Assembly: GCF_002198735.1 (NCBI RefSeq)
Contig: NZ_MWLO01000068.1
Coordinates: 1-42,142 of the forward strand
Length of the DNA stretch: 42,142 bases
Source: Ideonella sp. A 288
GTDB lineage: Bacteria; Pseudomonadota; Gammaproteobacteria; Burkholderiales; Burkholderiaceae_C
Direction of reading: 5' to 3'
Below are positions 17,141 to 32,856 of the stretch, piece by piece. Every line of letters starts with the position of its first letter. Within the stretch, counting starts at the first letter, position 1. Made by a program: the position numbers and the translations under genes. The notes under the pieces are model-generated. The model searched no databases, had not been told where the DNA came from, and saw only the letters and a list, made by a program, of their open reading frames with translations.

Positions 17141-19212
17141 TGGCGCTTGAGCACGGCGGGGCCGGTGGCCGCGTCGAAGCCCAGCGCCCACACCATCGTC
17201 AGGTCACCGGCCGCCGACACCCCTTCGGCGGAGATGGTCAGCCCGGCATCGTGCGCCAGGCGCACCATGCCCTGCAGGTGGCGGCGCACCGTGCCGGATT
17301 CCGGGCCGGTGATGCCGCGCAGGAAGCGGCCGTCGATGCGCACGCAGTCCACGCCGAGCTGGTTCAGGTGATCGATGCGGGCCAGGTTCTCACCCGCATG
17401 CTCCAGCGCCAGGCGCACGCCCAGCGGGTTCCAGCGGCGCGCCGCCTCCCGCACCAGGGCAGGACGGTCCAGGGCCAGTGATTCGGGCAGGTCGATCCAC
17501 AGGCGTCGCGCGGCGTCAGGCGCGGCCTCCAGGTCTTGCGTCAATCGCACCATGAACTCGCTGGACGCCAGCGATTGGGCCGACATGTTCACGCATCGCG
17601 CCTGGCCGTCGTGGCGGATCGCCTCGAGCGCCATCTCGACGACGCGCCGGTCGATCTCTGGTCCCATGTGGCCTCGCGCCGCAGGCGCCAACCAGCGCCA
17701 GGCCGATTCATAGGGGCCGCCCTCGTCGAACTGCACCCGCATCGGACAGTCGAGGTGCAGCACGCGGTCATCGCGGCCGCACACGGGGTAGGCACCGAGC
17801 ACCGTGCGGCGGTGCGCCAGAGCATCGGCCAGGCGCTGCTGCCAGACCGCATCGCCGAAGGCCGGCTGATCGGCCGAATTGCTGCCACTGGCCACGGCGT
17901 ACAGCGAGTCCGACTCGGCACTCGCCAGCGCCTCGTCGGCCAGCGCCAGGGCCTGCTTGACAGTGACCCGGCCGCGCAGGTTCACTGCACCGATGGCCAG
18001 TCCGCCGACCGGGTCGAGGCTGACCAGGGCCTGCCGCAGCGTCACCAGCAGGGCATCCGCCGTCTTGCGCGCCACGCCGTCGGACGGCATCAGCAGCGCG
18101 AAGTCCGACCCGTTGAGCCGGCCGGCCGCGCTGTGCGGCGTGGCCTCGTGGAGGGCGCGCAGGGCCTGCGCCACGCGCTGCAGCACCTGGTTGGCCGCGC
18201 TGTGCCCGACGCGCCGGTTCACGCCGATCAGGTCGCGCACCCGCACCAGCAGCAGTCCGGCGGCCGGCAGGGCGTCCTCGCCTTCGAGGGCCTGCTCGAG
18301 GCGCGCAATGAAGCTGGCCCGCTTGGCCAAGCCGGTCAGGGTGTCGACATGGGCCGCCAACCGGGCTTCCTCGATCACCCGGGCCTGCTGGCTCAGGGCC
18401 GTCTTCATCAGGGCGATCTGCTTCAGGTGCTTTTCCTTCGGCAGCTTGGGTGGAGGCTCCTGGGCCGGCGGCGCCACCGACGCGATCGTTGCCGGACCGT
18501 CGGCCACCAGTGGCCCCGGCTGCTGTGACGGCGACCGGCTCGCCGTGGCCGACCACTGGCTTTCCATCGCCGACACCGACATCGACGCCGACCGACGGCC
18601 CCCCTGGACCGAGTCGCTAGCGGCGGCCCTGTCGCCCCAGGCCAGCATCTGCTGGCCCAGCAGGCCGAGCCGCCAGCGGCCGACCAGCCCCACGACGAGC
18701 AGCGTCAAGGCCATCCCCAGCAGGAACTTCAGCGACAGCCTGCCGGCCCAATCGGTGGACTCGGCCCCGGCCGCCTCGATGCGCAGGCCGGCGGCCGCGC
18801 CGATGGGCTGGCGCAGCGCCACTTCCACAGCCTGGGGGGCGGGCACCAGCAGCCGCTCGATGGCGGCGCTGGCGTTCGCGGCAGCGGCCGGCGCAACGCG
18901 GCTGAACAGCAGCGCGCCACTGGCATCGACCACGTCGAGCCGCTGCAGGCGGTGTTCGTCGAAGTACTGCAGCAGGGCGGCGTCGCGCCGCTGCGGCTGG
19001 GGTCCGACGCGCTCCAGCACGGCCGCGATGCGGCGGCCGTGGTCCTGGGCCTGGCGCTCGGCGAGTTGGACGGTCGCCTCGCGCACCGTCCATTGCTGCA
19101 ACCCGATGGCGGCCAGCACGCACACGGCCATGCCGACCCAGAAGGTGCGGGCCATGCTGACGTGCAAGGCGCTGGCGGCCTGCCGAACCGAACGGGTGAC
19201 CAGGCTCAACAT
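17119..19212 (-). CDS. LapD-like membrane protein with degenerate GGDEF and EAL domains
   Basis: A 697-residue protein with the LapD layout: membrane helix (about 23-40), a periplasmic LapD/MoxY-type sensor (41-160), a second helix (162-178), a Pro-rich linker, a GGDEF domain (about 285-440) and an EAL domain (about 455-690). GGDEF is replaced by NGSDF (367-371). The EAL motif is replaced by LHLDCP, the DDFG motif reads EHAG (604-607) and VKID reads VRID, although VN and AEGV are kept. It should neither make nor break c-di-GMP, but could bind it and signal across the inner membrane. The start at 19212 has GAAGGGG upstream; an ATG 30 codons earlier has no support. No lapG is nearby. Confidence 0.88.
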   Translation of the reverse strand: MLSLVTRSVRQAASALHVSMARTFWVGMAVCVLAAIGLQQWTVREATVQLAERQAQDHGRRIAAVLERVGPQPQRRDAALLQYFDEHRLQRLDVVDASGALLFSRVAPAAAANASAAIERLLVPAPQAVEVALRQPIGAAAGLRIEAAGAESTDWAGRLSLKFLLGMALTLLVVGLVGRWRLGLLGQQMLAWGDRAAASDSVQGGRRSASMSVSAMESQWSATASRSPSQQPGPLVADGPATIASVAPPAQEPPPKLPKEKHLKQIALMKTALSQQARVIEEARLAAHVDTLTGLAKRASFIARLEQALEGEDALPAAGLLLVRVRDLIGVNRRVGHSAANQVLQRVAQALRALHEATPHSAAGRLNGSDFALLMPSDGVARKTADALLVTLRQALVSLDPVGGLAIGAVNLRGRVTVKQALALADEALASAESDSLYAVASGSNSADQPAFGDAVWQQRLADALAHRRTVLGAYPVCGRDDRVLHLDCPMRVQFDEGGPYESAWRWLAPAARGHMGPEIDRRVVEMALEAIRHDGQARCVNMSAQSLASSEFMVRLTQDLEAAPDAARRLWIDLPESLALDRPALVREAARRWNPLGVRLALEHAGENLARIDHLNQLGVDCVRIDGRFLRGITGPESGTVRRHLQGMVRLAHDAGLTISAEGVSAAGDLTMVWALGFDAATGPAVLKRHQSMSPQ

Positions 19213-19581
19213 CCCCGCAGCCCCTTCGGGTCGACCAAGATGGCCTGGCCCCGGCCAACGCCGACGCCCCGGCGACCACCCGCCGCCCGCCAGCCGTGCC
19301 ACGCCTGCACTTCGAACCCCATCACGCTACAGCCTTGTCACCGATCGGCGCTCCGTCTCCGCGGATTGCGGCCCGATTCACGCCCGACTCGGATGTTCAC
19401 ACACCGACACCCCCCAGGCGTGAGGACAAATACCGGACTGCACCGCGGCCGCATGATGGCCCCGCGAGTGGGGCCCCGCGGCGCACGGCGCGGTCGGCAG
19501 ACGGGCTTGCGCGGCACAGCCGCGACCGCTGCAGCGATCGCAGCCCGGCCACCCGGGTGGCACGGGCCTGCGACCGGTGTG
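19213..19581. other. 369-bp intergenic region, no gene seen
   Basis: Between the end of lpdA and the GGDEF-EAL gene, both on the minus strand. It holds a GGCCCC/GGGGCC short hairpin near 19456-19473 and a GCCACCCGGGTGGC palindrome near 19549, neither followed by T residues. The second may end the pyruvate dehydrogenase operon. No open frame has a family resemblance. Confidence 0.5.
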
Positions 19582-21360
19582 TCAGCGCTTCTGCGGCGGC
19601 AGGTCGGTGCAGGTGCCGTGGGCCACTTCGGCGGCCATGCCGATGCTCTCGCCCAGCGTCGGGTGCGGGTGGATGGTCTTGCCGATGTCCACCTCGTCGG
19701 CGCCCATCTCGATGGCCAGGGCCACCTCGCCGATCATGTCGCCGGCGTGGGTGCCGACGATGCCGCCTCCGACGATGCGGTGCGTCTCGGCATCGAACAG
19801 CAGCTTGGTGAAGCCTTCGTCGCGGCCGTTGGCGATGGCCCGGCCCGACGCGGTCCAGGGGAAGTGGCCCTTCTTGACCTTGATGCCGCGCACCTTGGCA
19901 TCGTCCTCGGTGAGGCCGACCCAGGCCACCTCGGGGTCGGTGTAGGCCACCCCGGGGATGACGCGGGCGTCGAACTGCGCCTTGGTGTCGCCGGCCGCCA
20001 CCTCGGCGGCCACGTGGGCCTCGTGCACCGCCTTGTGCGCCAGCATCGGCTGGCCGACGACGTCGCCAATGGCGAAGATGTGCGGCACGTTGGTGCGCAT
20101 CTGCACGTCCACCGGGATGAAGCCGCGGTCGGTGACGGCCACGCCGGCCTTGTCGGCGGCGATCTTCTTGCCGTTGGGCGTGCGGCCGACGGCCTGCAGC
20201 ACCAGGTCGTAGACGCCGTCGCTCTTGGTGCCGTCGAGCCCTTCGAACATCACGCGGATGCCGTCGGCCGTGGCCTCGGCGCCCACCGTCTTCGTCTTCA
20301 GCATGATCTTGTCGAAGCGGTGGGCATTCATCTTCTGCCACACCTTGACCAGGTCGCGGTCGGGGCCCTGCATCAGGCCGTCGAGCATCTCGACCACGTC
20401 GATGCGGGCGCCCAGCGTGGAGTACACCGTGCCCATCTCCAGACCGATGATGCCGCCGCCGATGACCAGCATCTTCTTCGGCGTCTGGCGCAGCTGCAGC
20501 GCCCCGGTGCTGTCGACGATGCGCGGGTCGTCCGGCAGGAAGGGCAAGCGCACCGCCTGCGAACCGGCGGCGATGATGCACTGCTTGAAGCGGATCGTCT
20601 GGGTCTTGCCGGTCTTGTCCTGCCCGTCACCGGTGGTCTCTTCCACCGTCACGTGGTGCGGGTCGGCGAAGACGCCGTAGCCGCGCACCACCGTCACCTT
20701 GCGCATCTTGGCCATCGCCGCCAGGCCGCCGGTGAGCTTGGTGACCACCTTGTTCTTGTGCGCCAGCAGCTTGGGCAGCTCGACCTTGGGCGGCGCGAAC
20801 TCGACGCCCAGGTCGGCGAAGTGCTTGACCTCGTCCATCACCGCCGCCACGTGCAGTAGCGCCTTCGACGGGATGCAGCCGACGTTCAGGCAGACGCCGC
20901 CCAGCGACGCGTAACGCTCGACGATGACGGTCTTCAGCCCCAGGTCGGCGGCGCGGAACGCGGCCGAGTAGCCGCCGGGGCCGGCGCCCAGCACGAGCAT
21001 GTCGCATTCGATGTCGGCGCCACCGGCGAAGCTGGCGGCCACGGGGGCGGTGGCCACGGGCGCGGCCGCCGAAGACGGCGCGGCGGCGGCCGGGGCGGCC
21101 TGGGCCGGCGCGGCGGCGGCACCGGTGGCCTCGAGCAGCAGCACCACGCTGCCCTCGTTGACCTTGTCGCCGATGGCGACCTTCAGTTCCTTCACGACGC
21201 CGGCGGTGCTCGACGGGATCTCCATCGAGGCCTTGTCCGATTCCACGGTGACCAGGCTCTGGTCCACCGCGATGGTGTCGCCGGGCTTGACCAGGATCTC
21301 GATCACCGCAACGTCCTTGAAGTCGCCGATGTCGGGCACCTTCACTTCGATGAGGGCCAT
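19582..21360 (-). CDS. lpdA: dihydrolipoamide dehydrogenase (E3) with N-terminal lipoyl domain
   Basis: A 592-residue flavoprotein, the E3 subunit of pyruvate dehydrogenase, which reoxidises dihydrolipoamide with NAD+. It has an N-terminal lipoyl domain (1-80, lipoyl Lys43 in ESDKAS), an Ala/Pro linker (81-116) and a complete E3: FAD-binding GAGPGG (125-130), redox cysteines Cys157 and Cys162 in [12 protein letters not shown], and the C-terminal HPHPTLGES His-Glu pair. The lipoyl extension is typical of betaproteobacterial PDH E3 and absent from E. coli Lpd. AAGGTAG precedes the start. It is the last gene of the aceE-aceF-bph-lpdA operon, 42 bp after bph. Confidence 0.97.
21121..21360 (-). 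repeat. lipoyl-domain coding repeat, copy in lpdA
   Basis: This segment encodes a lipoyl domain almost identical to the first one of AceF (shared [16 protein letters not shown] and [14 protein letters not shown]). With the AceF copies at 23480-23719 and about 23132-23365, it gives three direct copies within 2.6 kb. Confidence 0.8.
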
Positions 21361-21402
21361 GGTGTGTCTACCTTTCGTCTTGTCTCGTTGTGCCGCGTCG
21401 AC

Positions 21403-21975
21403 TCAGTCGCGCAGCTTCAGTGTGTGGGCCTTGATCGGCCCGGCTGAGTTCTTGTCGAATTCGCATCCCGCGCGCACGCCGCACTCGACCACCTCGCGCG
21501 CCGTCTTCGACTTGTCGAAGGTGGCGAACATCGCACCCAGCGCGAAGGCGCGGCCCGAGCCGATGGCCCAGAAGCGGTCGAACTCGAAGACCTCGCGGTA
21601 CGAGTACACGCCGAAGATGCCGCTCGCGTTGGCGATCAGCACCGTGAACTGGCTGCTCTCGTACGGGTCGGCGTCTTCTTCCTTGGTGTTGAGGAAGAAG
21701 TGCTCCTTCAGCCTGGGGTGCAGCTTCAGGAAGGTGTCGAACACCTCGTCGCGCGAATGCAGCTTCAGCTCGTCGGCGGGCAGGCTGCCCAGCGCCTTGC
21801 GCAGCACAGGGAAATGCGCCGTGGTGCCAGCCATGCCGACCCACGAATCGCCGATGCGGAAGACCTTGTCGTTGGCCTCGTAGCCATGCGCCAGGCGGGT
21901 GTCGCCGAAGGTCACCAGCGCGTCGGCGGCAATGGCCACCTGCCCGCCCTTGCGGGCGACGGCGATGGTGGTCAT
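21403..21975 (-). CDS. HslV/proteasome beta-like Ntn hydrolase (betaproteobacterial proteasome homologue, BPH)
   Basis: A 190-residue protein that after removal of Met begins with Thr-Thr, as do HslV and proteasome beta subunits. Catalytic positions by comparison: Thr1, Asp17 in IAADALVTFGD, a lysine in EANDKVFRIGD (Lys36, equivalent to Lys33), and the serine of AIGSGRAFALGAMF, matching AIGSGG of HslV. The size fits the family described as BPH, which forms double heptamer rings; many databases mislabel it as an MFS transporter, although no membrane helix is present. Start fixed by GGGAGG seven bases upstream. It sits inside the pyruvate dehydrogenase operon between aceF and lpdA. No HslU-like ATPase is nearby. 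Protease activity and substrate are inference. Confidence 0.85.
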   Translation of the reverse strand: MTTIAVARKGGQVAIAADALVTFGDTRLAHGYEANDKVFRIGDSWVGMAGTTAHFPVLRKALGSLPADELKLHSRDEVFDTFLKLHPRLKEHFFLNTKEEDADPYESSQFTVLIANASGIFGVYSYREVFEFDRFWAIGSGRAFALGAMFATFDKSKTAREVVECGVRAGCEFDKNSAGPIKAHTLKLRD

Positions 21976-21985
21976 CGCGCGGCCT

Positions 21986-22016
21986 CCCGCCCGCCGGCCC
22001 GCAAGCCGCGGGCGGG
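21986..22016 (-). promoter_or_regulatory. hairpin overlapping the bph ribosome-binding site
   Basis: A 9-bp perfect stem (plus-strand arms CCCGCCCGC and GCGGGCGGG, 13-base loop) lies in the aceF-bph spacer. Its downstream arm covers half of the GGGAGG ribosome-binding site, so folding could lower translation of bph. Confidence 0.45.
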
Positions 22017-22042
22017 TGCCTGGCCCGCTGCGGTGGCCCGGC

Positions 22043-23719
22043 TCACAGCAGGATGCGCCGGAAGTCGGTCAGCAGGCTGCCGAAGTACACGTTGAAGCGC
22101 GCGGCCGCCGCACCGTCGATGACGCGGTGGTCCCAGCTCAGGCTGAGCGGCAGGATCAGCTTCGGCACGAACTGCTTGCCATCCCAGCGCGGCTCGGTCG
22201 TGCTCTTGCACACGCCCATGATGGCCACCTCGGGCGCGTTGATGATCGGCGTGAAGTAGCGCCCGCCGATGCCGCCCAGCGAGCTGATCGAGAAGCAGCC
22301 GCCGCTCATGTCGGCCGGCCCCAGCTTGCCGTCGCGGGCCTTCTTGGCCAGCTCGCCCATCTCGGTGCTGATCTGGAACACGCCCTTCTTGTCGGCGTCC
22401 TTGATCACCGGCACGACCAGCCCGTTGGGCGTGTCGGCGGCAAAGCCGATGTGGAAGTACTGCTTCAGCACCAGCTGGTCGCCGTCGAGCGAGGCGTTGA
22501 ACTGCGGGAACTTCTTCAGTGCCGCCACGGCCGCCTTGATCATGAAGGCCAGCATCGTGACCTTGACGCCGGATTTCTCGTTCTCCTTGTTCAGCTGCAC
22601 GCGGAAGGCCTCGAGGTCGGTGATGTCGGCATCGTCGTGGTTGGTGACGTGCGGGATCACCACCCAGTTGCGGTGCAGGTTGGCGCCGCTGATCTTCTGG
22701 ATGCGCGACAGGTCTTTCCGCTCGACGGGGCCGAACTTGGTGAAGTCCACCTGCGGCCAGGGCAACAGGCCCGGGAAGGCACCGCCGGCCGCCGCGGGCG
22801 CCGCCGCCGGCGCCTTGGCCTTCTGGGCGGCGGTCTGCACCGCACCGGCCATCACGCGCTTGACGAAGCCCTGCAGGTCGTCCTGCGTGATGCGGCCCTT
22901 GGGCCCTGAGCCGGCCACTTCGGCCAGCGGCACGCCGAGGTCGCGGGCGAAGCGTCGGATGGTGGGCGACGCATGCGGCAGCGCGCCCTTTGGCGCGGTC
23001 GGCTCATGCGCCGGCAGGGCCGGGGCAGCCGAGGCGACCGTCACGGGCGCGCTGGCCGCAGCGGGCGCAGGCGCTGCAGCCGCCGCGGCCGCTGGCGCCG
23101 CGGCCGGTGCGGGCGCCGGCGCACTGCCGCCGCCCGAGGCCTCGACGATCGCCACCAGCGTGCCCTTGGACACCTTGTCGCCGAGCTGGACGCGAAGCTC
23201 CTTCACCACGCCGGCGTGCGAGGACGGGATCTCCATCGAGGCCTTGTCGCTCTCGACGGTGATCAGGCTCTGCTCGACCTTGATGGTGTCGCCGACCTTG
23301 ACCATCACCTCGATGACGGCCACCTCGGCAAAGTCGCCGATGTCGGGCACCAGCACCTCGACCGGGCCGGACGCCGCGGGCGCCGCCGCCACCGCCGCCG
23401 GGGCGGCAGTGGGCGGCGAGATCGCCTCGGTCAGCGTCGGCAGCTCGGCCTTGGCCGGCGGCTGCGGCGATGCGGCACCGGCCTCGGCCTCGAGCACCAG
23501 CACCACGCTGCCTTCGTTGACCTTGTCGCCGAGGCCGACCTTCAGCTCCTTGACGACGCCGGCGTGCGACGACGGGATCTCCATCGACGCCTTGTCCGAC
23601 TCGACGGTGAGCAGGCTCTGCTCGGCCTTGACCACGTCGCCCGGCTTGACCAGCAGCTCGATGACGGCCACGTCCTTGAAGTCCCCGATGTCTGGGACCT
23701 TCACTTCAACCAATGCCAT
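22043..23719 (-). CDS. aceF: dihydrolipoamide acetyltransferase (E2) of pyruvate dehydrogenase
   Basis: A 558-residue E2 that moves the acetyl group from lipoyl arms to CoA and forms the core of the complex. Order: lipoyl domain 1 (1-80, Lys43), Ala/Pro linker, lipoyl domain 2 (119-196, Lys159), a long Ala/Pro linker, the E1/E3-binding domain (about 248-285, [13 protein letters not shown]), and the catalytic domain ending with the active-site His531 and Asp535 in [11 protein letters not shown]. Two lipoyl domains are typical of betaproteobacteria (E. coli has three). GGAGA precedes the ATG. It follows aceE by 22 bp and precedes bph by 67 bp. Confidence 0.97.
23132..23365 (-). repeat. lipoyl-domain coding repeat, second copy in aceF
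   Basis: Second AceF lipoyl domain (residues 119-196), a diverged copy of the first; the lipoyl-lysine segment [17 protein letters not shown] is the same in both. Confidence 0.8.
23480..23719 (-). repeat. lipoyl-domain coding repeat, first copy in aceF
   Basis: First AceF lipoyl domain (residues 1-80). It is closer to the LpdA copy than to the second AceF copy, which suggests domain swapping between the two genes. Confidence 0.8.
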
Positions 23720-23741
23720 GTTCTTGTCTCCGTTTGCCGCG

Positions 23742-26450
23742 TCAGGCGTACAGCGGGTTGATCTTGTCGACCGAGAGGCCGTACTTCGCGATGGCCTCGG
23801 CCGCCCGGCTCGCCGGCACCAGGCCGTCGTCGGCCAGCGACTTCAGGGCCGCCACCACGACGTAGTGGCGGTTGACCTCGAAGTGCTCGCGCAGCTTGCT
23901 GCGGAAGTCGCTGCGGCCGTAGCCGTCGGTGCCCAGCACCTTGAAGGTGCGGCCCTTGGGGATGTACGCGCGGATCTGTTCGCAATAGCTCTTGATGTAG
24001 TCGGTGGAGGCCACCACCGGGCCGGCATGGCCGCCCAGTTGCTGCGCCACGAAGGGCACGCGCGGCGCCTCGGTCGGGTGCAGCAGGCTCCAGCGCTCGG
24101 CGTCCTGGCCATCGCGCGCCAGTTCGTTGAAGCTGGGGCAGCTCCACACCTTGGCCGCCACGCCCCAGTCGGACTCGAGCAGCTGCTTGGCCGCCATCGA
24201 TTCGCGCAGGATGGTGCCCGAGCCCAGCAGGTTCACCTGCGGCCGGCCGGCCGCGTCGGCGTCTTCCAGCAGGTACATGCCCTTGATGATCTGCTCTTCG
24301 GTACCCGCCTTCAGCCCGGGCATCGGGTAGTTCTCGTTGAGCAGGGTGAGGTAGTAGTAGACGTTGTCCTGCTTCTCGACCATGCGCTTCAGGCCGTGGT
24401 GCAGGATCACGCCGACCTCGTGCGCGAAGCTCGGGTCGTAGCTGACGCAGTTGGGGATGGTGCCGGCCAGGATGTGGCTGTGGCCGTCCTCGTGCTGCAG
24501 GCCTTCGCCGTTCAGCGTGGTGCGCCCCGACGTGCCGCCCAGCAGGAAGCCGCGCGCCTGCATGTCGCCCGCCGCCCAGGCCAGGTCGCCGATGCGCTGG
24601 AAGCCGAACATCGAGTAATACACATAGAACGGCACCATGATGCGGTTGCTGGTGCTGTAGCTGGTGGCCGCGGCGATCCAGCTGGCCATGCCGCCGGCCT
24701 CGTTGATGCCTTCCTGCAGGATCTGGCCGGCCTTGTCCTCGCGGTAGTACATCACCTGGTCCTTGTCGACCGGGGTGTACTGCTGGCCTGCCGGGTTGTA
24801 GATGCCCACTTGCCGGAACAGGCCTTCCATGCCGAAGGTGCGGGCCTCGTCCACCAGGATGGGCACCACGCGCGGGCCCAGGGCCTGGTCGCGCAGCAAC
24901 TGGGTGAGGAAGCGCACGTAGGCTTGCGTGGTGGAGATCTCGCGCCCCTCGGCGGTGGGCTCGATCACGCTCTTGAAGTTCTCCAGCGCCGGCACGGTGA
25001 AGCTCTCGTCGGCCTTGGTGCGGCGGTGCGGCAGGTAGCCGCCCAGCGCCTGGCGGCGCTCGTGCAGGTAGCGCATCTCCGGCGTGTCGTCGGCCGGCTT
25101 GTAGAACGGCAATGCGGCGAGCTGGCTGTCGGGAATGGGGATGTTGAAGCGGTCGCGGAACAGCTTGATGTCGTCGTCGGTGAGCTTCTTGGTCTGGTGG
25201 ACGTTGTTCTTGCCCTCGCCGGCCTTGCCCATGCCGAAGCCCTTGACGGTCTTGATCAGCAGCACCGTGGGCTGGCCCTTGTGGTTGACCGCCTTGTGGT
25301 ACGCCGCATAGACCTTCTGCGGGTCGTGGCCACCGCGGCGCAGGTTCCAGATGTCGTCGTCGGACATCTTGGCCACCATCTCCAGCGTGCGCGGGTCGCG
25401 GCCGAAGAAGTGCTTGCGGACGAACGCGCCATCGTTGGCCTTGAAGGCCTGGAAGTCGCCGTCCAGCGTGTCCATCATGATCTTGCGCAGGGCGCCATCC
25501 TTGTCGCGCGCCAGCAGCGCGTCCCAGTTGGCGCCCCACAGCAGCTTGATCACGTTCCAGCCCGAGCCGCGGAACTCACCCTCGAGCTCCTGCACGATCT
25601 TGCCGTTGCCGCGCACCGGGCCGTCCAGGCGCTGCAGGTTGCAGTTGACGACGAAGATCAGGTTGTCCAGGTTCTCGCGGGCGGCCAGGCCGATGGCGCC
25701 CAGCGATTCCACCTCGTCCATCTCGCCGTCGCCGCAGAACACCCAGACCTTGCGGTTGCTGGTGTCGGCGATGCCGCGCGCGTGCAGGTACTTCAGGAAC
25801 CGGGCCTGGTAGATCGCCATCAAGGGGCCCAGGCCCATCGACACCGTGGGGAACTGCCAGAACTCGGGCATCAGCTTCGGGTGCGGGTAGCTCGACAGGC
25901 CCTTGCCGGCCACTTCCTGGCGGAAATGCAGCAGCTGTTCCTCGGTGAGGCGGCCCTCCAGGTAGGCGCGCGCGTAGACGCCGGGGGCCACGTGGCCCTG
26001 GATGTAGAGGCAGTCGCCGCCGTGGTCCTTGCTCTCGGCGTGCCAGAAGTGGTTGAAGCCGGCGCCGAACATGTGCGCCAGCGAGGCGAACGAGCCGATG
26101 TGGCCGCCCAGGTCGCCGCCGTCCTCGGGGTTGTGGCGGTTGGCCTTGACCACCATGGCCATCGCGTTCCAGCGCATGTAGGCGCGCAGGCGCTCCTCGA
26201 TCTCGATGTTGCCGGGGCAACGCTCTTCTTCGTCCGTGGGGATCGTGTTGACGTAGGCCGTGTTGGCCGAGAAGGGCTGGTCGATGCCGGACTGGCGCGC
26301 TTCGTCGAGCAGCTTTTCCAGCAGGAAGTGGGCGCGCTCAGGGCCTTCGTTGGCAATGACGGCGTCTAGCGCCTCGAGCCATTCGCGGGTTTCCTGCGCG
26401 TCGGCATCGTTGGCGGCGACGCCAGGAAAGGATTGGGGCACGGCGGACAT
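23742..26450 (-). CDS. aceE: pyruvate dehydrogenase E1 component, homodimeric type
   Basis: A 902-residue thiamine-diphosphate enzyme that decarboxylates pyruvate and acetylates the lipoyl arms of AceF. The cofactor motif is clear, from GDGEMDE to FVVNCN. Other AceE features are [37 protein letters not shown], and the C-terminal [20 protein letters not shown]. The length is that of the single-chain alpha2 type of proteobacteria, not the split alpha/beta type. GGAGA stands before the ATG. It opens the operon aceE-aceF-bph-lpdA and is divergent from a sensor kinase/regulator pair across a 155-bp AT-rich gap. Confidence 0.98.
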
Positions 26451-26605
26451 CGGTTGTCTCCTGATTTCCGGTTGTGGTGGATGGAACGTCTGGCTCGAAG
26501 TTTGGCACAGCTTTGGTCAAATTTCAAATAGCGCGAGTTGATTTCTTATTGTGGAATGTACGTATCGCCTCCTGAGGCTGCCGCAGCGACCCGGATAATC
26601 GAGCC
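26451..26605. promoter_or_regulatory. divergent promoter region, aceE and sensor kinase
   Basis: A 155-bp gap richer in A/T than the flanking genes, especially about 26505-26555. On the minus strand TTGAAA and TTGACC stand near 26525-26510, about 60-75 bases before aceE, as possible -35 boxes, but no good -10 is found at standard spacing. On the plus strand GATAAT lies at 26594-26599. Confidence 0.45.
26594..26599 (+). promoter_or_regulatory. -10-like GATAAT six bases before the start codon
   Basis: GATAAT, then CGAGCC, then the ATG of the sensor kinase. There is no ribosome-binding site. It is one of the best examples of the leaderless-type arrangement in this window. Confidence 0.45.
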
Positions 26606-29197
26606 ATGAACCCCCGCAAGCCCGGACTGGTCACCCATGCCACGGAGGCCGGCCGGCGATTGCTCGGCCGCTGGTGGCGACGCCAATCGCCGGCCCGGCA
26701 GGACCGCTTCGCCACGCTGGGTCCGCTGGTGTCGGTGCTGCTCTTCCTGGCGGCGATCATCTCGGCCTTCTGGTACCTGCGCAACGAGGAGGTTGAACGC
26801 GAGGCCGAGGCCGTCAAGCGCGACGTCGAGATCGCGCAGCAGCAGATCCGCCTGCGGCTGATCGAGAACCAGGAACAACTGGTGCGACTGGTGCGCGAGA
26901 ACCTGACCCGCGAGCAGGACACCGCCGACTTCCAGCGCCTGGCCGCCAGCTTCGCCGCCGAGCGCCCCGAGGTGCTCAAGCTCACCTGGTTCGACGCACA
27001 GAAGAACGTGCGCGGCCAGTACGCGCTGTACGACTCACGCGACGAGAGCAGCCCCGTGGCAGGCAGCGCCAGCGCACCGCCCGCCGCCTCGGGGGTGCGC
27101 ACGGAATCGGACTGGGCCTTCATCACGCTGCGCGACCTGCGCCAACCGGTGTACTCGCGGCCCTTCCAGAACGCCGAGCGGGCCATGGTCTTCCAGGTGC
27201 ACGTGCCATTGATCGAGCGCGGCCACTTCGGCGGCGCCCTGGTGGCCGACATCGGCATCGACGCGCTGCTGCGGCACCTGGTGCCGGTGGACGTCACGCG
27301 CCGCCACCCGGTGGCGGTGATCGACGAGCGCGAGCAGTTGCTGGCCAGCTCGGTCACGCCGATGCCGGGGCCCCGGACTCGGCGCGCTTCCATCGTCCAC
27401 GACGTACCTCTCACCCCCGCGGCCAACGGCCTGGTGCTGCGCGGCACCGGCTACCGCACCTCGGCCGGCCTGGTCGGCAACACGCTGTTCTGGATGGTGG
27501 TGGCGTTGTCGGCGCTGACCGTGTGGATGCTGCTGGGCACCTGGCGGCACATGCGCCGGCGCTCGCAGATCCAGGGCGCGCTGGTGCAGGAGACCAACTT
27601 CCGCCGGGCGATGGAGAACTCCATGCTCACCGGCATGCGCGCGCTCGACCTCGAGGGCCGCGTGACCTACGTCAATCCGGCGTTTTGCGCGATGACCGGA
27701 TTCACCGAAGGCGAGCTCATCGGCCGCCTACCGCCCTACCCCTACTGGCCGCACGACCGCATCGACGAGAACGCCCGGCTGCTGCAGCAGGAACTGCAGG
27801 GCCGCAGCCCGGCCGGCGGCATCGAGGTCAAGGTGATGCGCAAGAACGGCACGCTGTTCGACGCCCGCATGTACGTGTCGCCGCTGGTCGATTCGCGCAG
27901 CCAGCAGACCGGCTGGATGACGTCGATGACCAACATCACCGAGGCCAAGCGCATCCGCGACCAGCTCTCGGCGTCGCACGAACGCTTCACCACCGTGCTG
28001 GAGGGCCTGGACGCCGCGGTGTCGGTGCTGTCGGTGCAGCATGGCGAACTGCTGTTCGCCAACCGCTCGTACCGCCTGTGGTTCGGCGCCGATTCGCGCG
28101 GCCACGCGCTGCTGGCCAGCGGCACCGGCCCGGCCCTGCCGGTGGCCACCGACCGCGACGAGTCGGTCGACGGCCTGTCGGGCCTGCCCACGCAGGAACT
28201 CACCGCCATGGGCGCCAACCCCCGTGAGATCTATGCCCATGCGCTGGACAAGTGGTTCGATGTGCGCTCGCGCTACCTGCAGTGGACCGACGGGCGGCTG
28301 GCGCAGATGCTGATCGCCACCGACGTCACCGCCCGCCGCCGCGCCGAGGAGCAGGCCGCCCAGCAGGCCGAGAAGGCGCAGGTGTCGAGCCGGCTGATCA
28401 CCATGGGCGAGATGGCCTCGTCGGTGGCGCACGAGCTGAACCAGCCGCTCACCGCCATCACCAACTATTGCAGCGGCATGGTCTCGCGCGTCAAGGCCGA
28501 GACGATCGACCGCGACGCGCTGATCACGGCGCTGGAGAAGACCGCCCGCCAGGCCGAGCGCGCCGGGCAGATCATCCACCGCATCCGCGCCTTCGTGAAG
28601 AAGAGCGAACCGCAGCGCCAGCCGGCCCATGCGCACGACATCGTCGAGGACGCGGTCGAACTCGCCAGCATCGAGCTGCGCCGGCGCAACGTGGCCATCC
28701 ACCAGTACGTCGCCCAGCACCTGCCGCAGCTGCGCTGCGACCCGATCCTGGTCGAGCAGGTGCTGCTCAATCTCCTGAAGAACGCCGCCGAGGCCATCGA
28801 CAGCGCCAAGCTGCCGCCGTCGCGCCGGCACATCGAGCTGCGCGTGATCCCGAGGCACACCCCGGATGAGGGGGGCGTGATCGAGTTCAGCGTCACCGAC
28901 ATGGGCCCCGGGCTGCCCGAAGAAGTGCTGGCGCGCCTGTACGAGGCCTTCTTCTCGACCAAGGCCGAGGGCATGGGCATCGGCCTGTCGCTGTGCCGCT
29001 CGATCATCGAGTCGCACCGGGGCCGGATCAGGGGCCAGAACCTCTACAATGGCGACACCGTGGCGGGGTGTCGTTTCGCCTTCACCCTGCCCGTTGAAAC
29101 CCACGCGCGGCACGAGGAGACCACGCGGCCCGCAGCAGTACACAACGAGGCCGCGCTCGACGCCGATAACACCCCCGCAGCGAAGACCACCCCATGA
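26606..29197 (+). CDS. PAS-domain membrane sensor histidine kinase
   Basis: An 863-residue kinase. Helix 1 (about 39-58, GPLVSVLLFLAAIISAFWYL) and helix 2 (about 290-312) enclose a periplasmic sensor domain of about 230 residues; two PAS domains follow (about 330-450 and 455-570; the first has YVNPAFCAMTGFTEGELIG). The phospho-acceptor is His609 in SVAHELNQPLTAI, and the ATPase has the N box LLKNAAEAI and the G box EGMGIGLSLCRSI. The layout resembles FixL/DctB-type kinases. No haem-binding residues were identified. Its stop overlaps the regulator start (ATGA). Its place divergent from aceE suggests it senses a carbon or redox signal for pyruvate metabolism, which is inference. Confidence 0.93.
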   Translation: MNPRKPGLVTHATEAGRRLLGRWWRRQSPARQDRFATLGPLVSVLLFLAAIISAFWYLRNEEVEREAEAVKRDVEIAQQQIRLRLIENQEQLVRLVRENLTREQDTADFQRLAASFAAERPEVLKLTWFDAQKNVRGQYALYDSRDESSPVAGSASAPPAASGVRTESDWAFITLRDLRQPVYSRPFQNAERAMVFQVHVPLIERGHFGGALVADIGIDALLRHLVPVDVTRRHPVAVIDEREQLLASSVTPMPGPRTRRASIVHDVPLTPAANGLVLRGTGYRTSAGLVGNTLFWMVVALSALTVWMLLGTWRHMRRRSQIQGALVQETNFRRAMENSMLTGMRALDLEGRVTYVNPAFCAMTGFTEGELIGRLPPYPYWPHDRIDENARLLQQELQGRSPAGGIEVKVMRKNGTLFDARMYVSPLVDSRSQQTGWMTSMTNITEAKRIRDQLSASHERFTTVLEGLDAAVSVLSVQHGELLFANRSYRLWFGADSRGHALLASGTGPALPVATDRDESVDGLSGLPTQELTAMGANPREIYAHALDKWFDVRSRYLQWTDGRLAQMLIATDVTARRRAEEQAAQQAEKAQVSSRLITMGEMASSVAHELNQPLTAITNYCSGMVSRVKAETIDRDALITALEKTARQAERAGQIIHRIRAFVKKSEPQRQPAHAHDIVEDAVELASIELRRRNVAIHQYVAQHLPQLRCDPILVEQVLLNLLKNAAEAIDSAKLPPSRRHIELRVIPRHTPDEGGVIEFSVTDMGPGLPEEVLARLYEAFFSTKAEGMGIGLSLCRSIIESHRGRIRGQNLYNGDTVAGCRFAFTLPVETHARHEETTRPAAVHNEAALDADNTPAAKTTP

Positions 29198-29820
29198 GCC
29201 TGATCCCCAAGAAAGGCACGGTCTACGTCGTCGACGACGACGAAGCCGTGCGCGACTCCCTGCAATGGCTGCTGGAGGGCAAGGACTACCGCGTCAAGTG
29301 CTTCGACTCGGCCGAATCCTTCCTCTCGCGCTTCGACCCTCGCGAGGTCGCCTGCCTGATCGCCGACATCCGCATGGACGGCATGAGCGGGCTCGAACTG
29401 CAGGACCGCCTGCTCGAGCGCAAGAGCCCGCTGCCGGTGGTCTTCATCACCGGCCACGGCGACGTGCCGATGGCCGTCACCACGATGAAGAAGGGCGCGA
29501 TGGACTTCATCGAGAAGCCCTTCAAGGAAGACGACCTGCTCGGCCTCGTCGAGCGCATGCTCGACCAGGCCCGGTCGGCCTTCAGCCAGCACCAGGAGCA
29601 GGCCAGCCGCGACGCCCTCTTGTCTCGCCTGACCACCCGCGAGGCCCAGGTGCTCGAGCGCATCGTGGCCGGCCGGCTGAACAAGCAGATCGCCGACGAC
29701 CTGGGCATCAGCATCAAGACGGTCGAGGCGCACCGCGCCAACATCATGGAAAAGTTGAACGCCAACACCGTGGCCGACCTGCTCAAGATCGCGCTCGGCG
29801 CCAACACCGCCAAGGCCTGA
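29194..29820 (+). CDS. FixJ-type response regulator (receiver + LuxR HTH)
   Basis: A 208-residue regulator. The receiver domain (1-125) has the acidic pocket VVDDDEAVR, the phospho-acceptor Asp58 in [12 protein letters not shown], the threonine in VVFITGHGD and the lysine in [10 protein letters not shown]. The LuxR/FixJ helix-turn-helix occupies about 143-200 ([15 protein letters not shown], then [18 protein letters not shown]). It should be activated by the kinase whose gene overlaps it by four bases and bind promoter DNA as a dimer. A strong terminator follows. Likely targets include the divergent aceE promoter or its own, but no binding site was identified. Confidence 0.95.
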
Positions 29821-29843
29821 CCCGACACCCCCTGCCCTGCCGA

Positions 29844-29870
29844 GGCCGCTGCCGTTCCAGCGGCCTTTTT
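29844..29870 (+). terminator. intrinsic terminator of the two-component operon
   Basis: GGCCGCTG and CAGCGGCC arms with a six-base loop, followed by five T residues, 24 bases after the regulator stop. The folD start codon is only 17 bases further on. Confidence 0.9.
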
Positions 29871-29887
29871 CGTTTGTGGAGATCCCG

Positions 29888-30745
29888 ATGCCTGCGCAAT
29901 TGATCGACGGCACCGCGCTGTCGAAGAAGATCCGATCCGAAGTCGCTGTCCGTGCGGCCGCCCTCACCGCCCGCGGCGTCACGCCGGGGCTGGCCGTGAT
30001 CCTGGTCGGCGAAGACCCGGCCTCGGCGGTGTACGTGCGCAACAAGGTCAAGGCCTGCCAGGAGCACGGGCTGCATTCGGTGTTCGAGAAGTACGACGCC
30101 AGCCTGCCCGAGGCCGACCTTCTGGCCCGGCTGCACGCGCTCAACGTCGACCCCGCCATCCACGGCATCCTGGTGCAGATGCCGCTGCCCCGGCACATCG
30201 ACCCGCACAAGGTCATCGAGACCATCTCCACCGACAAGGACGTCGACGGCTACTCGGTGCGCAGCGCCGGCGACCTGATGGCCGGGCTGCCGGGCTTCCG
30301 CCCCTGCACGCCCTACGGCTGCATGAAGCTGATCGAGTCCACCGGCGTGCCGCTCAAGGGCAGGCACGCGGTGGTCATCGGCCGCAGCAACACCGTGGGC
30401 AAGCCGATGGCCCTGCTGCTGCTGCAAGCCAATGCCACCGTCACCGTGTGCCACAGCGCCACCGCCGACATCGGCGCCCACACGCGGCAGGCCGACGTGG
30501 TGGTGGTGGCCGTGGGTCGCCGCAACACGCTGACGGCCGACATGGTCAAGCCCGGCGCCATCGTCGTCGACGTCGGCATGAACCGCGACGACGCCGGCAA
30601 GCTGTGCGGCGACGTGGACTTCGCCGCCGTGCGCGACGTGGCCGGCTGGATCACCCCGGTGCCCGGTGGGGTCGGGCCGATGACGATCACAATGTTGCTC
30701 GTCAACACCCTCGAATCCGCCGAGCGGGCGGCAGGTCGGGCGTAG
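29888..30745 (+). CDS. folD: bifunctional methylenetetrahydrofolate dehydrogenase/cyclohydrolase
   Basis: A 285-residue FolD, which interconverts 5,10-methylene-, methenyl- and 10-formyl-tetrahydrofolate using NADP. Family signatures: [19 protein letters not shown] with the catalytic YVxx[43 protein letters not shown] (NADP binding) and the C-terminal [12 protein letters not shown]. Full length. The ATG at 29888 has GGAGA upstream; an ATG four codons earlier lies inside that site. It stands directly behind the terminator of the two-component operon, so its promoter must overlap that terminator or the regulator gene, or it depends on read-through. Confidence 0.96.
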
Positions 30746-30780
30746 CCCGCCGCCACCACGCCACCATCACTGCCGCGACG

Positions 30781-32856
30781 ATGAACAACCCCCTGCTGAC
30801 CGCGCTCGAACTGCCGGCGTTTTCCGACATCCGGCCCGAGCACGTCACCCCGGCACTCGACGTGCTGCTGCCCGAGGCACAGGCCGCGGTGGAGCGCGCC
30901 GTCGGTGCCGCCGTCCCCGCCGAGTACGAGCCGCTGTCGGCCGCGCTCGACGTGCCGCTCGAGCGGCTGTCGCGCGCCTGGCGCGCGGTGTCGCACCTCA
31001 ACGCCGTGGCCAACACGCCCGAACTTCGCGAGGCCTACAACGCCAACCTGGCGCGGGTCACCGAGTTCTACACCACGCTCGGTGCCGACGAACGGCTCTA
31101 TGCCAAGTACAAGGCCGTGGCGCAGCAGGGCCAGGGCCTGAGCGCCCCGCGCCGCCGGGCGCTGGACAACGCCATGCGCGACTTCGTGCTGTCCGGGGCC
31201 GAGCTGCAGGGCGCCGCACGCGAGCGCTTCGCGGCCATCCAGGCGCGCAGCGCCGAAGTGACGCAACGCTACTCCGAGCACGTGCTCGATGCCACCGATG
31301 GCTTTGCGCTGATCGCCACCGACGCGCAGATGGCCGGCGTGCCCGCCGACGTGCGCCAAGCCGCCCGCGCGGCCGCCGAGGCCGCGGGCGCCGAGGGCTA
31401 CAAGCTCACCCTGCACATGCCCAGCTGGATGCCGGTGATGCAGTACGCCCACGACCGCGGCCTGCGCGAATCAATGTACCGCGCCTACTTCACCCGCGCC
31501 AGTGAACAAGGCCCTGCCGAGCACGACAACAGCCCGCTGATGAGCGAGATCCTGCTGCTGCGCCAGGAAGAGGCCGCGCTGCTGGGCCACGCCAGCTTCG
31601 CCGAACTGTCGCTGGTGCCCAAGATGGCGCAGTCGCCCGCGCAAGTGACCGAGTTCCTGCGCGACCTGGCACGCCGCGCCCGGCCACACGCCGAGCGCGA
31701 CTTCGACGAGATGCGCGCCTTTGCCGCCGAGCGCCTGGGCCTGGCCGACCTGCAGCCCTGGGACCTGTACTACGTCTCCGAGAAGCTCAAGGAAGAACGC
31801 TACGCCTTCAGCGAGCAGGAGGTGAAGCAGTACTTCACCGAGCCGCGCGTGCTCGAGGGCCTGTTCCGTCTCATCGAGACGCTGTTCGAGGTGAGCATCC
31901 GCCCCGACAGCGCCTCGGTGTGGCACGACTCGGTGCGCTTCTACCGCATCGAGCGCAGCCAGGGCGGCGGCCTGCCGCCGCAGCTGGTGGGGCAGTTCTA
32001 CCTCGACCCGCATGCCCGCCCGGGCAAGCGCCCCGGCGCCTGGATGGACGAAGTGCGCAGCCGCTGGCTGCGGCCCGACGCCCCCGCCATGCCGGGCCGC
32101 GCGGTGCAGACGCCAGTCGCTCAGCTGGTGTGCAACTTCGCACCGCCGGTGGTGCAGGCCGACGGCGCCGAACGGCCGGCCCTGCTGACGCATGACGACG
32201 TCATCACGCTGTTCCATGAGTTCGGCCACGGCCTGCACCACCTGCTCACGCAGGTGGACGACCTGGCCGTCTCCGGCATCTCGGGCGTCGAATGGGACGC
32301 CGTCGAGCTGCCCAGCCAGTTCATGGAGAACTTCGCCTGGGAATGGGAGGTGATCTCGCGCATGACCTCGCACGTCGACACCGGTGTGCCGCTGCCCCGC
32401 GAACTGTTCGACCGCATGCTGGCCGCGCGCAACTTCCAGAGCGGCCTGCAGACGCTGCGGCAGATCGAGTACGCGCTGTTCGACATGCGCCTGCACAACG
32501 AGGCCGATGCGCCCGGGCGCATCCAGGCCGTCGTCGACGAGGTGCGGGCCGAGGTGGCGGTGATCGTGCCGCCGCCGTACAACCGCTTCCAGCACACCTT
32601 CTCGCACATCTTCGCCGGCGGCTACGCGGCCGGCTACTACAGCTACAAGTGGGCCGAAGTGCTGTCGGCCGATGCCTATGCCGCCTTCGAGGAGGCCGGC
32701 GTGTTCGACGCCGAGACAGGGCGCCGCTACCGCCGCGAGATCCTCGAGGCCGGTGGCAGCCGCGCGGCGATGGACAGCTTCAAGGCGTTCCGGGGCCGAG
32801 AGCCGCAGATCGACGCGTTGTTGCGCCACCAGGGCATGAGTGCGATCGTGCCTTGA
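30781..32856 (+). CDS. prlC: M3 family oligopeptidase A
   Basis: A 691-residue zinc metallopeptidase of the thimet oligopeptidase family that degrades short cytoplasmic peptides, including cleaved signal peptides. The zinc motif HEFGH is at 479-483 (LFHEFGHGLHHLL), with the third ligand in the following ELPSQFMENFAWE helix. The N terminus (NPLLTALELPAFSDIRPEHV) and C terminus (SRAAMDSFKAFRGREPQIDALLRH) are those of OpdA/PrlC. The start at 30781 matches the family; there is no clear ribosome-binding site. It lies 35 bp after folD and is probably co-transcribed with it. Confidence 0.95.
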   Translation: MNNPLLTALELPAFSDIRPEHVTPALDVLLPEAQAAVERAVGAAVPAEYEPLSAALDVPLERLSRAWRAVSHLNAVANTPELREAYNANLARVTEFYTTLGADERLYAKYKAVAQQGQGLSAPRRRALDNAMRDFVLSGAELQGAARERFAAIQARSAEVTQRYSEHVLDATDGFALIATDAQMAGVPADVRQAARAAAEAAGAEGYKLTLHMPSWMPVMQYAHDRGLRESMYRAYFTRASEQGPAEHDNSPLMSEILLLRQEEAALLGHASFAELSLVPKMAQSPAQVTEFLRDLARRARPHAERDFDEMRAFAAERLGLADLQPWDLYYVSEKLKEERYAFSEQEVKQYFTEPRVLEGLFRLIETLFEVSIRPDSASVWHDSVRFYRIERSQGGGLPPQLVGQFYLDPHARPGKRPGAWMDEVRSRWLRPDAPAMPGRAVQTPVAQLVCNFAPPVVQADGAERPALLTHDDVITLFHEFGHGLHHLLTQVDDLAVSGISGVEWDAVELPSQFMENFAWEWEVISRMTSHVDTGVPLPRELFDRMLAARNFQSGLQTLRQIEYALFDMRLHNEADAPGRIQAVVDEVRAEVAVIVPPPYNRFQHTFSHIFAGGYAAGYYSYKWAEVLSADAYAAFEEAGVFDAETGRRYRREILEAGGSRAAMDSFKAFRGREPQIDALLRHQGMSAIVP

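Follow-up and report, generated by a model that had tools for sequence, protein, structure and literature searches.

A Betaproteobacterial Proteasome Homologue encoded in the pyruvate dehydrogenase operon of Ideonella sp. A 288 and many of its relatives

Why should a gene for a proteasome-like peptidase lie inside the operon of a metabolic enzyme, and does its position say anything about its function? The question is raised by Ideonella sp. A 288 (NCBI RefSeq assembly GCF_002198735.1), specifically by contig NZ_MWLO01000068.1, whose positions 1 to 42,142 are referred to here as the window, meaning the whole stretch of 42,142 nucleotides that was analysed. A preliminary description of this DNA had placed a complete proteasome-like gene between aceF and lpdA of the pyruvate dehydrogenase (PDH) operon, on one strand and with short spacers, and this placement is confirmed (Table 1). 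The open reading frame of the gene, bph, is intact, starts with ATG and encodes a product beginning MTTIAVARKGG. AceE, AceF and LpdA each pass one NCBIfam equivalog cut-off, and the E2 model TIGR01348 also matches LpdA over residues 3-115. A second aceE-like gene, located elsewhere in the genome on contig C2 (G000:C2:960-3626, minus strand), has 55% identity to the window AceE. Divergent from aceE, the window carries at 26606-32856 (plus strand) a PAS histidine kinase, a LuxR-type response regulator, a FolD-like gene and an M3-family oligopeptidase, the last of which puts another peptidase gene close to the PDH operon.

Table 1. Genes and spacers of the PDH operon in the window, listed in the direction of reading
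Feature	Coordinates	Strand	Length	Basis
aceE, PDH E1, first gene of the operon	23742..26450	(-)	902 aa	TIGR00759, 1426.6 bits (cut-off 859.9)
aceF, PDH E2, upstream neighbour of bph	22043..23719	(-)	558 aa	TIGR01348, 718 bits (cut-off 552.1)
aceF-bph spacer	21976..22042	(-)	67 nt	GGGAGG ribosome-binding-like stretch ahead of the bph ATG, read from the sequence
bph, proteasome-family subunit	21403..21975	(-)	190 aa	PF00227 above cut-off; matches to PDB 5ovu and 5ovs; catalytic residues conserved
bph-lpdA spacer	21361..21402	(-)	42 nt	
lpdA, dihydrolipoyl dehydrogenase with N-terminal lipoyl domain, downstream of bph	19582..21360	(-)	592 aa	TIGR01350, 483.8 bits (cut-off 408.8)

The product of the window gene is a Betaproteobacterial Proteasome Homologue (BPH), and both this identity and its membership of the operon are solid. 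It passes the gathering score of the Pfam Proteasome family PF00227 (30.3 bits, cut-off 22.4), and in a search against the PDB its best solved chain is 5ovu (E 3.5e-75, 255.1 bits), followed by 5ovs and 5ovt (E 4.6e-36, 127.6 bits), with the best HslV chain reaching only 29.2 bits. In the available text of PMC5777263, 5ovu is the BPH of Cupriavidus metallidurans (Rmet_1198), and 5ovs and 5ovt are that of Thiobacillus denitrificans. The closest sequence relatives in the PDB search are therefore characterised BPHs, not HslV or proteasome subunits; the family membership anticipated at the outset holds, and an unrelated family is not indicated. The window BPH matches the C. metallidurans protein over its full length and shares with it the catalytic residues, the acidic pore loop and, by the published account, the PDH operon setting (PMC5777263, available text); we found a difference of species and none in kind, the window protein being known from its sequence. 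The T. denitrificans BPH, judged by sequence, matches in family and fold, but its setting in the same source is an argG operon, not PDH.

HslV (TIGR03692, NF003964) has its Pfam family in common with the window BPH, and is described in the available text of PMC5777263 as the ancestor from which BPH descends. The genome contains an HslU, and the HslV models align with the N-terminal part of the window BPH, as would be expected if the protein were a divergent HslV partnering the cell's HslU. We regard this as hardly credible. The window protein falls far short of the HslV equivalog cut-offs (28.2 against 157.75 bits, and 30.5 against 137 bits, respectively), and hslU, above its own cut-off on contig C64, already adjoins the genome's other PF00227 match; on these two grounds the divergent HslV was rejected. 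Additionally, the available text of PMC5777263 reports no HslU in a C. metallidurans BPH pull-down, the loss in BPH of the residues that form the HslU interface in HslV, and a longer acidic pore loop in BPH, such as is present in the window protein. No unfoldase gene stands beside bph in the open reading frames read, the neighbours being aceF and lpdA, in agreement with the preliminary description; as far as their available text goes, PMC5777263 found no partner unfoldase for BPH and PMC8665760 likewise knows of none.

The catalytic residues named in that description are all present. In mature numbering, with the initiator Met as 0, the window BPH bears Thr1, Asp17, Lys36, Gly49 and Ser139 of the GSG motif, and Thr1 follows immediately upon the start Met, with no propeptide. 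In an alignment of 141 rows (140 fetched BPHs and the window), Lys36 and Gly49 are invariant (141/141 each), and Asp17 is conserved in 138 rows, Thr1 in 134 (Ser in six, a gap in one) and Ser139 in 128. The acidic loop of the window BPH, FLNTKEEDADPYESSQ, contains five Asp/Glu, close to the mean of 5.1 across the 76 PDH-type rows. The six rows with Ser at residue 1, all of this order, are L099, L142, L147, L149, L152 and L155; L099 belongs to the window's own genus, lies in a PDH operon and sits on a long branch of the BPH tree.

The BPH family, its structure and its PDH arrangement are already known. The window locus adds one more case to an arrangement already in print, since PMC5777263 (J Biol Chem, 2018) reports, in its available text, the family, two structures and the PDH operon setting, naming argG, PDH (in C. 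metallidurans) and Hsp33 as the operon settings. The preliminary description knew of no PDH-linked role from the literature, yet a link to PDH is in print: the same text discusses carbonylated PDH subunits as possible BPH substrates. It describes a tetradecamer in solution, a tetradecameric double ring, and covalent binding of epoxomicin or MG132 at Thr1. Its functional results leave the proposed degradation or maturation of PDH subunits unsupported: pull-downs with C. metallidurans BPH brought down no PDH subunit and no HslU, various peptides as well as casein stayed uncut with no protease activity, and carbonylation patterns under oxidative stress were unchanged with BPH. No later functional study of BPH was found in the literature searched. 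What is added here are the counts of PDH-type loci, their single tree branch, the patchy presence and loss of bph, and the start/stop overlaps of aceF and bph.

These overlaps bear on how bph is expressed. The end of aceF could be placed in 75 of the 76 PDH-type loci, the window included. In 17 of the 75, bph starts before aceF has ended (an overlap of 4 nt in 16, of 1 nt in one); a gap of 0-50 nt separates the two in 39, and the gap is longer in 19, among them the window. The overlaps in relatives support a single aceE-aceF-bph-lpdA transcript, and constitute good indirect evidence, drawn from gene spacing, that PDH-type bph shares one transcript, with probable translational coupling in some relatives. 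The aceF-bph spacer of the window holds a perfect 9-bp inverted repeat (21986-21994 / 22008-22016) just 5' of the bph start. A conserved regulatory hairpin was rejected, as shuffled sequences of the same base composition fold as well as the spacer does (z -0.3) and the aceF-bph distance varies among the 75 PDH-type loci between an overlap of 4 nt and a gap of 258 nt. The spacers of a few relatives, such as L051, L078, L079 and L082, fold better than shuffles. Scans for promoters and terminators are uninformative in this GC-rich genome: no sigma-70-like site was found in 19200-26800, and terminator-like sites numbered 4 against 4.2 in shuffles, with 0 on the operon strand.

How widely is the arrangement shared? 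Of 250 genomes sampled from the order, 96 have a BPH match, as do 76 of 299 genomes of the family (the window's genome included; five matches are partial, and that in G384, E 5.2e-4, is doubtful) and 6 of 21 genomes from the genus. We fetched 140 matches, each with up to about 10 kb around it. The family contributed 65, out of 75 matching genomes besides the window's own; the genus search added one (G257); and the order supplied 74 loci, which come from 73 of its 95 other matching genomes. The set leaves out 10 family genomes (five with partial or doubtful matches), 22 order genomes, and the second match that G157 and G219 each contain. Settings were counted by tblastn with named references, because the ORF caller used for neighbours may pick shadow ORFs in GC-rich DNA.

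The order aceF-bph-lpdA on one strand, whose conservation had been proposed as a check on the arrangement, recurs in 75 of the 140 fetched loci, and is not peculiar to this genome. It is found in all 66 fetched loci of the window's family and in 9 of the other 74, these nine being spread over four other families. Against three near relatives, the window bph has a dN/dS of about 0.09, 0.13 and 0.18 (dN 0.049, 0.061 and 0.082; dS 0.525, 0.484 and 0.454); such low ratios, with the recurrence in 75 loci, make the arrangement more than chance. Among the 80 closest of 182 named loci, 79 have the order aceF-bph-lpdA, and in the remaining one (L251) bph lies at a contig end with lpdA downstream; the nearest named species in this set are Aquabacterium terrae (93% identity) and A. 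humicola (92%).

The other 65 fetched loci have non-PDH settings. In 28, argG lies upstream and yajQ downstream of bph, yajQ being within 200 nt in 27 and 2.8 kb away in the exception, L159. These argG-type loci are L143-L173 except L145, L147 and L152, with yajQ on the same strand as bph, and the YajQ of L146 passes NF003819, 'YajQ family cyclic di-GMP-binding protein'. In 25 loci hsp33 lies downstream of bph, and 12 have another setting. In four of these twelve (L118, L122, L124, L134) bph is followed immediately, on its own strand, by an Hsp15-like (hslR) S4-domain gene, recognised in L118 by NF007673 (110.8 bits, under the cut-off of 148), in L122 and L134 by the S4 domain, and in L124 by tblastn only. 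L126, L132 and L135 also have an Hsp15-like gene, some 1 kb beyond bph, along with an hsp33 downstream; the available text of PMC5777263 names Hsp33, not Hsp15, as a BPH setting.

The history of the arrangement was read from two trees. In the BPH tree (141 rows), the 76 PDH-type rows, the window plus 75, carry five family codes and lie on one side of a single branch, and the settings as a whole require 5 changes, where shuffling gives a mean of 58.9. This one branch and the 5 changes of setting suggest that bph moved into the PDH operon once, a reading weakened by a branch support (SH-aLRT 94) just under the starred level and by a quick, midpoint-rooted tree. Distances between BPHs and between LpdAs correlate (Mantel r 0.706, n=70; none of 999 permutations reached this value), as vertical descent predicts; the two trees disagree in some details within the window's genus.

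For the absences, 26 genomes (25 without a BPH match, and G384) were searched with LpdA, which gave 26 orthologous lpdA loci, G265 giving none that was usable. aceF lies directly upstream of lpdA, with 0-47 nt between aligned ends, in 23 of these 26 loci without a clear bph; another gene occupies the slot in two (L192, L197), and no aceF end was seen in one (L183). In the first of the two the occupant encodes a DUF4253 protein (L192:3396-4091, minus strand); in the second it is a 294-aa ORF that matches nothing in Pfam (L197:3468-4352, minus strand). When mapped on a tree of LpdA with 73 rows that have bph and 26 that lack it, the presence of bph changes about 10 times, at least 3 of the changes being forced by starred branches. 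The patchiness of bph, with aceF directly upstream of lpdA in most bph-less loci, points to repeated loss from the operon. It appears that bph entered the PDH operon once, and has been lost many times since.

PDH does not need bph, since aceF adjoins lpdA without it in 23 of 26 loci. Degradation or maturation of PDH subunits by BPH is unsupported, and 65 of 140 loci lie elsewhere. A stronger tie would be a peptidase dedicated to PDH, which trims or clears its subunits, such as E2/E3 chains that bear lipoyl groups and have been damaged, or their flexible linkers. The constant place between aceF and lpdA in the family and in nine loci from four others, the 17 start/stop overlaps and the BPH-LpdA distance correlation are all consistent with such a role, yet we consider it unlikely. 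The published pull-downs contained no PDH subunit (PMC5777263, available text), bph is lost while PDH stays, and nearly half of the loci lie in other settings. Nor does the length of LpdA differ usefully with the presence of bph, the medians of full-length rows being 606 aa with it (n=69) and 611 aa without (n=19). What remains of the preliminary reading is the BPH identity, the want of an adjacent unfoldase and the conserved place in the PDH operon; the processing of PDH subunits is not supported, and a PDH link is not new to the literature.

With a PDH-specific role opposed by pull-downs, absence in relatives and other operons, we prefer a different reading, held with little better than even confidence: BPH is a dispensable, ATP-independent quality-control peptidase, for which the PDH operon is an expression host. 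By homology, the window protein would shed its initiator Met, exposing Thr1, and would form a two-ring, 14-subunit barrel with Thr1 inside, the nucleophile being activated by Lys36 and Asp17 and the acidic loop NTKEEDADPYESSQ lining the pore. The aceE-aceF-bph-lpdA transcript would yield the protein, as the overlaps in relatives support. Most likely it would cut, independently of ATP, a limited range of polypeptides that are damaged or loosely folded; this would be a proteostasis function that the cell can do without, with the PDH operon as one of several hosts that give bph steady expression.

Quality control is favoured because the hsp33 and Hsp15-like neighbours outside the PDH branch have heat-shock functions, because the nearest solved relatives are two BPHs and no unfoldase is adjacent, and because of the one PDH branch, the start/stop overlaps and the roughly 10 changes of presence. 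Against it stand the uncut peptides and casein and the unchanged carbonylation with any BPH tested (PMC5777263, available text), the 28 argG loci, mostly with yajQ close by, which are not an obvious proteostasis setting, and the constant place within the PDH branch, which could equally mean a PDH-specific role. It is also possible, though doubtful, that the operon supplies expression only and that the position is functionally meaningless, bph having arrived once and then been inherited in place or lost. The single branch followed by patchy presence fits with this, as do the unrelated genes in the same slot of two bph-less relatives; however, purifying selection on the window bph and retention over five family codes argue that the protein is useful, which does not extend to its position.

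The structure of BPH, a barrel resembling that of a protease, is solved. That in one betaproteobacterial branch BPH has come to serve PDH alone, as a peptidase that removes or trims lipoyl-bearing E2/E3 chains once they are damaged, seems to us rather improbable; if true, the operon of a metabolic enzyme would contain its own quality-control component in the form of a proteasome relative. The many natural absences of bph among close relatives are ready-made comparisons. If the PDH-operon home, stable and often translationally coupled, reflects function, BPH would be an unusual case of a proteasome relative bound to a single metabolic complex.
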